From NCBI RefSeq assembly GCF_000980875.1, contig NZ_LAYO01000103.1, positions 1-64,000 of the forward strand: a stretch of DNA of 64,000 nt, read 5' to 3'. Position 1 is the first letter of the stretch. The number at the start of each line of letters is the position of its first letter. This document shows positions 40,604 through 43,088 of the stretch, one piece after another. Source of the stretch: Leucobacter sp. Ag1 (lineage in GTDB: Bacteria > Actinomycetota > Actinomycetes > Actinomycetales > Microbacteriaceae). Under the pieces are notes generated by a model. It was not told the DNA's origin. It searched no databases and was given only the letters and a program-made list of their open reading frames with translations. The translations under genes and the position numbers were made by a program.

Positions 40604-40711
40604 CGACTCTTGGCTTGCGTGTGGATCAACACCACACAACCCGCAAGGTGCCCTCTCTCGCCGCGCGGACAACCCGTCAATACCTCTTACCTCGTAAGGA
40701 CAGAACCCAAC

Positions 40712-40972
40712 GTGGCAAACATCAAGTCGCAGATCAAGCGCATCAAGACCAACCGCAAGGCGACCGAGCGCAACCGTGCGTACAAGAGCGAGCTTCGCAC
40801 CGTGATCCGTCAGGTGCGCGAGGCGATCTCCGCTGGCGACAAGAGCGCTGCCGAGGCCAAGCTGCAGGTTGCCGCGCGCAAGCTCGACAAGGCCGTGAGC
40901 AAGGGCGTCATCCACAAGAACCAGGCCTCGAACCGCAAGTCGAAGCTCGCGGTCAAGGTCGCTGCGCTCTAA
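40712..40972 (+). CDS. rpsT: 30S ribosomal protein S20
   Basis: Small rRNA-binding protein, 86 residues, Lys/Arg/Ala-rich helical bundle starting [21 protein letters not shown] and ending in the [10 protein letters not shown] helix. The GTG start at 40712 follows AAGGA by 11 nt. The frame upstream is leader RNA. It is monocistronic, closed by a very strong hairpin 24 bp after the stop. Confidence 0.97.
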
Positions 40973-40995: not shown

Positions 40996-41031
40996 CAACA
41001 GGCCCCGCCGGGATTCCGGCGGGGCCTGTTG
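40996..41031 (+). terminator. rpsT terminator
   Basis: A perfect 16-bp stem (CAACAGGCCCCGCCGG and its complement) with a GATT loop. No U-tract follows. A second near-palindrome, ACCTGGGTACCCGGGT (41043-41058), comes right after it. Confidence 0.85.
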
Positions 41032-41289
41032 CGTACCCGGGAACCTGGGTACCCGGGTCCTCTGGGTTCTCGGGCTGCTTGCGTTTCTTGCTTCCTGCAT
41101 TTCCGCGTTTCGCGGCTCCCTCCCCCGGACAACTCCTTTGGGGAAGGCCGCTCGGTCTGGGCCGGGTCTGGTCAGGGCGGCCTGATGCGGATAGGCGGAC
41201 GGACAGGCCACCGACTTCGCCGATGATGTCCGCGTCTGTGTCGGCACTCACGGCCACGACAACCGCGACGGCCACGGCGATCGGACGTC

Positions 41290-41403
41290 TTCCCGACAAG
41301 TGGACGCTTTCCCGACGAGTGGACGGCTCCCCGACGAGTGGACGGCGAGTCGGCCACCGGCAAGACGTCCAATCGTCGGTTCGGCGTCCAATCGTGGCTC
41401 GGC
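41290..41403. repeat. 19-bp repeat block 1
   Basis: Six consecutive 19-bp units. Three are of type TTCCCGACGAGTGGACGGC (41290, 41309, 41328, with one to three changes). One is GAGTCGGCCACCGGCAAGA (41347). Two are of type CGTCCAATCGTCGGTTCGG (41366 and a variant at 41385). Confidence 0.85.
41337..41385. repeat. 49-bp exact direct repeat, copy 1
   Basis: Identical over 49 bp to 41666-41714, starting AGTGGACGGCGAGTCGG and ending GTCGGTTCGGC. It spans the unit types that end each repeat block. Confidence 0.9.
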
Positions 41404-41542
41404 GCGCGCCGACAATCTGAGGCACCACCCGCACAGCCCGTGAAGTTCCCCGCTCCGTACAAGGCCATCCGTCGGGCGCCGACTCCACACCCAAGGGGAG
41501 CACCGCCACAGCCGGACCGCCGAGCGCTTCGGCGGCGCTAGG

Positions 41543-41732
41543 TCGTCCATCCGTCGGGCGCTTCCCAACGTCTGTACGTGTTCCCAACGTCTGTACGTGT
41601 TCCCAACGGCTGTACGTGTTCCCAACGGCTGGCCGTATTTTCGAAGGCTGGACGCCTTCTCGACAAGTGGACGGCGAGTCGGCCACCGGCAAGACGTCCA
41701 ATCGTCGGTTCGGCATCCATTCGTCGGTCCTG
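41543..41732. repeat. 19-bp repeat block 2
   Basis: Ten in-phase 19-bp units. They are a TCGTCCATCCGTCGGGCGC unit (41543), two identical TTCCCAACGTCTGTACGTG units (41562, 41581), and progressively diverged forms at 41600, 41619, 41638 and 41657. The same three-unit tail as block 1 follows (41676, 41695, 41714). Block 2 is out of phase with block 1 by 6 bp. Confidence 0.88.
41666..41714. repeat. 49-bp exact direct repeat, copy 2
   Basis: Second copy of the 49-bp sequence at 41337-41385, offset by 329 bp. Confidence 0.9.
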
Positions 41733-42065
41733 CGGCCAGACCACCGTGCCAGCGCCCCGTCGCGTTTCAGCGGCTGCCCGTCGACGCAGACCGCTCCGAC
41801 CGCTTCCTGGGCGCCACCCGCCCAAACAGGGACAGCAGGCAAGGGTCCCTCTCGCGAACGGGATCACCCGGCGGGAGCCAATTTCGTCCCGAGCTGACCC
41901 GGGCGTCGAATCTGCACGACACACGCAGCGTTCTCGGAAAGCACCCCGCCAAAATGCACTCCGCCGAGAACCATGCCGGTCAGACACGCCTCAGCGAGAT
42001 TCACCGCAGCCGGAACCAGTGCGCTCGGCGCTACCGCACCCGCACCCGCAACCGCCGGGAGCGCC

Positions 42066-43088
42066 TCAGGCGCGGCGGGGCTCGCGTCCGCGGCGGGCGA
42101 CGAAGAGCACGAAGCGTTCCAGCGCGTACTCGGGGTCCCGGCTGCCGCCCTTGAGCAGCCACTCCGTCTCGGCCGCGAGGTCGATCGCCGCAGCCAGGTG
42201 CTCCTCGCTCCACGCCCGGCCGTCCTTCACCGCGCGTTCCGCCTGCCAGGGCGCCATACCCAGGTCCTTCGCGAGCTGCCCCGCGGATCCGCGGGCGCCG
42301 TAGGCCCGGGCGATGCCGCGGAGCTTGAAGTTGAGCGCCGCGAGCATGGGGATGGGATCGGTGCCGGTCGAGAGCGCCTGACGGAGCAGCACGAGCGCAT
42401 CGGCCGCCTTGCCCGCCGTGGCGGCATCGGCGACCTTGAACGCGCTCGCCTCCACGCGTCCCTCGGTCGCCCGTTCGACGTCGTCCTCGGTGATGCGGGC
42501 GCCCGCGGTCTCGACGATCTGGGCGCAGGCACCGGCGAGCTCGCCGAGACCGCCCGCGTAGGCGAGGACGAGCTGCCGCGCCGCGCCGGGGGTCGCCTGC
42601 GCCCCGAGCCGGTGGAACTCGCCCATGGCGAAGTCGTAGCGGTCCTGATCCTTCTTGATCTCGAGGCACGGGATCTCGATCGCGTCCGCGAGCCCGCGGA
42701 CCTGATCGAGCACGGCCTTGCCGCGCTGCCCGCCTCCGTGGCGGAGCACGAGGGTCGTGTCTTCGGCAGGCTGCTCGAGGTAGCGCTTCATGTCGGTGAT
42801 GAACGCGTCGGAGCACTTCTCGACGCCATCGACGCGGATGAGGCGGGGCTCGGCGAAGAGGGAGGGACTCGCGATCGTGAAGATCTCGCCGGAGGCGTAC
42901 CCGGAGGCTTCGATGTCGTGAACCTCGGTCTCGGGGACCGCGGCCTTGAGCTGATCGCGGATGGTCCGTGCAGCACGGTCGGCGAGGAACGCCTCGGGTC
43001 CGCTGATGAGCACGACCGGCGCCGGGCGCGCCTCGAACCATCCCACCTGAGGGATCTTGCTCTTGCTTCCGCCCTTTGCCGCTGCCAC
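42066..43088 (-). CDS. holA: DNA polymerase III subunit delta
   Basis: Clamp-loader subunit that opens the beta clamp. The 340-residue protein starts VAAAKGGSKSKIPQVGW and has the delta-type N-terminal domain (VVLISGPEAFLADRAARTIRDQL), a helical lid and a C-terminal collar domain (AWSEEHLAAAIDLAAETEWLLKGG). The GTG start has TAGGCT six bases upstream and no separate leader. The comEC frame runs 301 bp into this gene in a different frame. comEC-holA-rpsT is the conserved order. Confidence 0.92.
   Translation of the reverse strand: MAAAKGGSKSKIPQVGWFEARPAPVVLISGPEAFLADRAARTIRDQLKAAVPETEVHDIEASGYASGEIFTIASPSLFAEPRLIRVDGVEKCSDAFITDMKRYLEQPAEDTTLVLRHGGGQRGKAVLDQVRGLADAIEIPCLEIKKDQDRYDFAMGEFHRLGAQATPGAARQLVLAYAGGLGELAGACAQIVETAGARITEDDVERATEGRVEASAFKVADAATAGKAADALVLLRQALSTGTDPIPMLAALNFKLRGIARAYGARGSAGQLAKDLGMAPWQAERAVKDGRAWSEEHLAAAIDLAAETEWLLKGGSRDPEYALERFVLFVARRGREPRRA

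Follow-up and report, generated by a model that had tools for sequence, protein, structure and literature searches.

The gap between rpsT and holA in Leucobacter sp. Ag1 contains two inverted arrays of 19-bp units, each of which is best read as a single copy of a small, probably mobile element with four sites bound by a putative recombinase-like protein of fast-changing specificity, a reading to which we assign a probability of about 0.45. The core would consist of two inverted arms around a short center, with at least two copies of a recognition site per arm at 19-bp spacing. One lineage-specific DNA-binding protein of the recombinase or transposase type would read the four sites as double-stranded DNA, and the same putative protein would pair the arms and would have carried the element to further intergenic locations. 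The specificity of this protein would change fast while the spacing and, for the multi-copy families, a CGA core stayed the same, so that each lineage would have its own “dialect,” with the copies following. Positions below refer to the window, the 64-kb stretch of DNA that was analyzed, and G000 denotes the genome of Ag1 itself (3.54 Mb in 111 contigs).

The first-pass annotation described a degenerate 19-bp periodic array in this gap, and Tandem Repeats Finder reports period 19 at 41283-41346, 41366-41404, and 41562-41631. When the window is scanned in exact 19-bp steps with the 13-bp consensus CGACGANTGGACG and up to 3 mismatches are allowed, both blocks resolve into an inverted element: CGACGANTGGACG units at 19-bp spacing, then a 21-bp center, then reverse-complement units. 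The array extends from 41275 to 41726, and Pfam confirms the identities given earlier for the flanking genes. The features are as follows.

40703-40972, plus strand: rpsT (ribosomal protein S20; Pfam), left flank, reading towards the array; the start at 40703 was chosen by eye, and the listed frame begins at 40610
41275-41344, plus strand: left arm of element 1, four direct 13-bp units at 41275, 41294, 41313, and 41332 (mismatch scan)
41345-41365, unstranded: center of element 1, 21 bp, GCGAGTCGGCCACCGGCAAGA, with the axis at 41355
41366-41397, minus strand: right arm of element 1, two inverted units at 41366 and 41385
41544-41556, minus strand: lone inverted unit with one mismatch, between elements 1 and 2
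41566-41673, plus strand: left arm of element 2, six direct units at 41566, 41585, 41604, 41623, 41642, and 41661
41674-41694, unstranded: center of element 2, 21 bp, identical to the center of element 1
41695-41726, minus strand: right arm of element 2, two inverted units at 41695 and 41714
42066-43088, minus strand: holA (DNA polymerase III delta; Pfam), right flank, reading towards the array and convergent with rpsT

Four of the six left-arm units of element 2 (41566, 41585, 41604, and 41623) are poor matches to the consensus, with 3 mismatches each, and the opening 3.7 copies of the 19-mer in this arm are 98% alike. A 15-bp segment at the lone inverted unit (41547-41561) recurs at 41465-41479. 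In a geometry scan that uses no consensus and asks for two plus-strand units, a center, and two minus-strand units, the blocks score 71 and 60 of a possible 78; these are the top two scores in the window, and the best among 100 window shuffles was 53. The centers are identical and the blocks, which lie 329 bp apart, align at 82% over 116 bp; thus, one of them probably arose by local duplication.

What had been taken for the same ordered three-unit tail in both blocks proved to be the center followed by the leading unit in reverse complement, twice, and each block is therefore a single inverted array. The earlier statement that simple slippage would not make such a structure holds for the layout, although extra tandem units do occur in single arms. 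The absence of CRISPR-like spacers was borne out: the 6-bp linkers are partly conserved, the array inverts at its center, and constant repeats with unique spacers were not found. The gap is indeed long, as had been suggested. Homology to the nearest relative, Leucobacter sp. OLIS6 (G020), whose HolA is 99% identical to that encoded in the window, ends at 41041 and restarts at 42046, and 378 bp lie between the same points in OLIS6.

Searches of this and related genomes for the 19-mers, which had been proposed as a check, revealed a dispersed family in Ag1 itself and five elements in OLIS6. A DNA search of the Ag1 genome gave 34 matches, and a two-unit pattern gave 68 matches (by our own count, spread over 17 contigs in 21 regions), versus 0 for the reversed control. 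About 25 elements, including the 2 in the window, were laid out from 20 stretches plus the window, although totals vary among analyses with the thresholds and spacing rules used. In 23 of the 25, both inner units were recovered independently, with starts separated by exactly 34 bp; the mismatch scan missed one weak inner unit at each of loci L018 and L027. Strand-pooled profiles of 23 G000 elements have sharp edges at -41 and +41 about the axis, and those of 32 elements from a second genome, G018 (see below), have sharp edges at -47 and +47, which places the core at 2+2 units and 83-95 bp. In both profiles the outer unit is conserved, and so is the inner one. Extra units are confined to one arm in 15/15 expanded G000 elements (of 22; chance 0.024) and in 6/6 expanded G018 elements (of 32; chance 0.77), a count that takes two units per arm as its baseline, the reality of the second unit resting on the profile; this is suggestive, but not strong, evidence that the arrays grow on one arm.

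The exact core pattern, to which the OLIS6 copies do not conform, had no match in a collection of genome contigs from 84,980 species, from which the Ag1 genome was possibly left out, or in IMG/VR. At up to 3 mismatches, the core was found among 249 genomes of the family in G000 and, as one three-mismatch match each, in three other genera, while the reversed control matched one genome. Among the open-licence papers listed in literature searches, none describes arrays of this kind in Leucobacter or Microbacteriaceae.

A broadened pattern with up to 2 mismatches, run against 54 Leucobacter genomes, gave 20 places in G000, 5 in OLIS6, and a single chance-like one in G061 (reversed control: two genomes, once each). 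All five elements found in OLIS6 sit at sites orthologous to G000 elements; four of these sites match on both flanks at 92-99% identity, and the fifth (L030/L022) matches on the right flank only, at 96%. Most of the OLIS6 elements have a shifted consensus, CGACGAGAGAACG. Among the orthologous copies, position 8 is T in 5/20 OLIS6 units versus 17/20 G000 units (p = 3e-4) and position 10 is G in 9/20 versus 20/20 (p = 1.5e-4), although both positions were picked post hoc and units within one locus are related and hence not independent. The T at position 8 has been lost from at least three of the four OLIS6 units in four of the five shared loci, L030/L022 being unshifted; in the four shifted loci, 10 units changed from T to A and 5 to G.

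Fifteen further G000 sites were located in OLIS6. Both flanks matched at 13 of them, with 0-290 bp between the flanks, and the genome search found no element in those 13 gaps. The surplus DNA in G000 exceeds the size of the element at all 10 sites read; thus, neither a clean insertion nor a clean loss can be demonstrated. At three loci (L025, L017, and L021) the gap is 0-5 bp in OLIS6 and about 200-800 bp in G000. The surplus at L025 contains short tandem repeats, and that at L021 holds a predicted 105-codon frame.

The same layout with different letters was recovered from other genomes. At the 3' end of rpsA (S1 domains by Pfam), the consensus-free geometry scan of 29 other genomes gave scores of 59 for OLIS6 and 62 for G018, with the remaining genomes at 47 or below. 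The G018 unit, ATCCGACCCGCTT, was thus discovered by geometry alone. A pattern based on it matches G018 at 31 places; G000 and G020 have no match, and three others have 1-2 places at three mismatches. The reversed control matches three other genomes, once each. G018 also has clusters of three to four elements about 200-340 bp apart with similar centers (L143, L144, and L149), which are probably local segment duplications, like the pair in the window.

Stretches from four more Leucobacter genomes yielded period-19 elements in G025 and G074. A pattern from the G025 unit (TCGAGTCGGCC, also the unit of G029 and G017) matches 14, 14, and 9 places in G025, G029, and G017, respectively, and the one locus read in each has period 19 on both arms. 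Eleven other genomes have 1-3 matches, but these low counts mean little because the reversed control matches 13 genomes, and some of the nine G017 places may be chance matches. In two genomes, G009 and G034, the reversed control matched 8 and 6 times, so a further family of inverted repeats may exist in these species.

Across nine Leucobacter species, 1.2 Mb of sampled DNA, 80% of it called coding, gave eight period-19 hits, all of them intergenic (four in G074 and two each in G025 and G034). Ten other periods not divisible by three gave three hits in total in the same DNA, and periods 15, 18, 21, 24, and 27 gave 16, of which 12 were genic. There was no period-19 hit in 80-100 kb from each of six other Leucobacter genomes, including G017, or in 319 kb from other families. 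Other genera of Microbacteriaceae gave two intergenic hits in 367 kb, one of which (L223 in G103) is convincing by eye: a single intergenic 2+2 element of period 19 at L223:19500-19620, with the unit TTCGCCATCC. Two of the loci in G074 are intergenic tandem arrays of other 19-mers, CACAGGTGTGCACCCAAGT at L112:16743-16832 and CCGTTCCGAGTCGGGGCCG at L113:18040-18136, which lack the CGA register described below. Period-18 hits in G025 (L096:1512-1570 and L098:327-395) are hairpins with TCGGA and CACCCGTGT motifs and possibly belong to another family.

Within these divergent units, the distance of CGA from the axis is constant across the multi-copy families but is kept in only four of the eight sampled period-19 hits, a comparison made post hoc with the register set by geometry. 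The G000 and G018 profiles both have CGA as their consensus at -20 to -18 and at -39 to -37, although in G000 it is weaker at -38, where G occurs in 30/46. It stands at register in 18/20 sites in OLIS6, in 7/8 in two sampled G025 elements, and in 7/8 in the G074 elements L110 and L176. Loci L257, L254, and L264 have it at three of four register sites each, the exceptions being TGA. The sampled hits that lack CGA at register are L112, L113, L244, and L246. As for the two hits outside the genus, all four places read CGC at L223, and L228 has neither CGA nor CGC.

These observations bear on a more ambitious version of the proposal, a “PRDM9-like” system in which a fast-evolving DNA-binding protein would co-evolve with dispersed 2+2 arrays, with copies already in place being rewritten too. 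The 19-bp spacing, the fixed axis, and the CGA core would be preserved, and everything else in the site would be replaced in each lineage. We rate such co-evolution as rather improbable, and slightly more so in view of the hits that lack CGA at register.

Elements are located in intergenic DNA, mostly at 3' ends of genes. Gaps were classed with a simple, home-made codon-model gene finder trained on these genomes, which misses some small genes. Of 37 placed gaps with an element in G000 and G018, 25 are convergent, 11 tandem, and 1 divergent, versus 39, 170, and 69 for element-free gaps in the same stretches; by genome, the counts are 11/7/0 for G000, with one more unplaced, and 14/4/1 for G018. 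Two G000 loci fall outside this count; first gene calls show a long divergent gap at L013 and a tandem one at L027. A Pfam scan of 20 of the 34 listed flanking proteins in G000 found no transposase. The neighbors scanned are ordinary, with one each of a TetR regulator, a GntR regulator, a YqaJ-type recombinase-nuclease, and a ResIII-type helicase as the proteins that act on DNA. Among the gaps compared, the rpsA gap alone hosts elements in both G000 and G018, which indicates that location does not depend on particular genes.

This placement could instead reflect sites owned by the host, in which a domesticated or regulatory protein would bind the inverted array in convergent gaps, where it would form a two-sided transcription block or a chromosome-organizing site, and would co-evolve with it. 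The excess of convergent gaps, the conservation of both outer and inner units, and the loss of the position-8 T from most units at four of the five loci shared with OLIS6 are all consistent with such a role. However, a host function sits poorly with a single gap common to G000 and G018 and with thirteen OLIS6 gaps that have no element, and rpsT has a terminator-like hairpin of its own just before the array (about 41001-41028, seen by eye and absent from the list of the terminator scan). We consider host ownership unlikely; under the preferred reading of a mobile element, any benefit to the host is conjectural.

Whether the units act as duplex or as hairpin can be addressed by comparing the complementarity of the two arms within elements with that of arms shuffled between elements. 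Pairing was not above the shuffled level in four families: G000 (p = 0.79; 20 elements, one per gap), G018 (p = 0.96; 21 elements), G025 (p = 0.69; 13 of 14), and G029 (p = 0.10; 13 of 14). Taken apart, the inner units gave p = 0.99 in G000 and 0.18 in G018, and the outer units gave 0.78 and 0.97; the inner arms of G018 reach p = 0.03 when neighboring duplicated copies are included, versus the 0.18 obtained with one element per gap. The 6-bp linkers gave p = 0.93 in G018 and p = 0.03 in G000, the latter uncorrected and one of six tests. The test can see pairing where it exists, since the hairpins of another genome, G076, treated alike, gave p = 0.0015 (24 of 26, with one variable column). Those hairpins are a separate, single-hairpin family, found at 26 places by the G025-unit pattern, with the form TCGATTCGGCCCCGTTC-loop-GAACGGGGCCGAATCGA (for example, L266:1501-1542); their stem changes are matched, and the one locus read lacks period 19.

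The units thus follow the consensus of their genome and not the partner arm, and they probably behave as independent sites of a trans-acting factor, read as double-stranded DNA. The alternative of structured RNA or of single-stranded DNA hairpins of the REP/BIME kind draws on the good folding of single elements (z = -10.1 for L028, -4.5 for L036 of OLIS6, -4.3 for L092 of G018, and -3.4 on the minus strand and -2.7 on the plus strand for element 1 of the window) and on the slight excess of linker pairing in G000. However, a palindromic consensus yields good folds by itself, element 2 of the window and L024 fold weakly (z = -1.0 and -1.4, respectively), and the unit arms of the four families lack the covariation seen in the G076 hairpins. 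Rfam returned two matches only, both far below curated thresholds. We regard this alternative as very unlikely, and the structured RNA that had been offered as one possibility is not supported. The other two possibilities offered, iteron-like protein-binding sites and a mobile repeat family, each gain partial support from the dispersed copies, the fixed site geometry, and the unit pairs that do not covary.

Terminal inverted repeats and many dispersed non-coding copies, by which a MITE is recognized, are both present. No convincing target-site duplication was seen at 22 G000 and 32 G018 elements for lengths of 2-10 at 21 x 21 offsets each; in G000, the best flank match of at least four bases occurred at 2/22 elements, and the best of two bases occurred at 8/22 versus 3.1 expected, uncorrected for the thousands of offsets tried. 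No autonomous copy or factor gene was found, and no parent element was noticed in the stretches read, where annotation was unsystematic and the genome is in 111 contigs. The lack of a convincing duplication argues that the element is not an ordinary MITE.

It could nonetheless be that ordinary MITE families, one per lineage, are decaying with no continuing recognition and that their common geometry comes from one transposase superfamily. Dispersed, lineage-limited families, a defined element of 83-95 bp, and its rarity in divergent gaps are what such families would show. The missing target-site duplication speaks against them, as does the in-place change at positions 8 and 10 of orthologous copies, with the caveat that these positions were chosen after the fact, and we hold this explanation to be rather unlikely. 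The preferred reading, with a protein that still recognizes its sites, has its own difficulties: orthologous copies have changed their unit in place, unlike plain inserted copies, and the lack of a factor gene and of target duplication, the unclean insertions, the linker pairing in G000, and the four of eight hits without CGA all count against it.

Dispersed repeats in bacteria are usually recognized by sequence, whereas in these families it is the layout, rather than the sequence, that is conserved. Ordinary similarity searches therefore miss the kinship between families, and a search by geometry would give a route to finding repeat families. Should there be a cognate protein, every Leucobacter lineage would be a natural experiment in which a specificity and its sites change in place genome-wide.

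The elements resemble REPINs and REP/BIME sequences in being dispersed intergenic inverted doublets with a lineage-specific sequence that lie downstream of genes or between convergent ones. Each REP is short, palindromic, and tagged with GTAG or CGTC (PMC3733652). The Leucobacter arm, in contrast, consists of two direct, non-palindromic 19-bp units. The Y1 transposase RAYT (PF01797) was detected in 0/54 Leucobacter genomes, while 5/14 control genomes were positive. We rejected a REPIN/RAYT system because PF01797 gave no match, the unit is not self-palindromic, and the unit arms do not covary.

The closest formal parallel is with the uptake sequences of Neisseriaceae, which have eight dialects around a core CTG (PMC3630211), much as the Leucobacter units vary by species around a fixed trinucleotide. 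The Leucobacter units could be self-recognition sequences for DNA uptake with species dialects, but they differ from uptake sequences in copy number, array form, and strict inverted geometry: there are tens of arrays rather than thousands of single copies. Single units are also sparse. The window has four exact units, all in the array; allowing up to 2 mismatches raises the count to 27, of which the array accounts for 11, and this is not above chance (25.6 expected). In 279 kb of G000, 55 isolated unit matches, 50 of them in genes, are no more than this chance rate predicts. An uptake function is thus extremely unlikely.

The pneumococcal BOX and RUP elements are short non-coding elements in many copies (PMC3049150). 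MITEs and BOX/RUP share with the Leucobacter elements a short length, a lack of coding capacity, many copies, and a variable number of internal units. BOX is modular, with variable numbers of internal units. The Leucobacter elements differ in having no convincing target duplication, a consensus that shifts in place, and arms that are themselves arrays with extra units on one arm only.

Arrays of transposase sites at transposon ends are known from Tn402, with the 19-bp repeats of TniA, and from Mu and Tn7. These ends have at least two direct sites each, are mutually inverted, and have a spacing of about 19-22 bp, as in Leucobacter, although the Leucobacter “ends” are only about 21 bp apart with no transposase between them. 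The element may work like the paired sites of a recombinase or transposase, or like those of a host protein that bridges the two arms.
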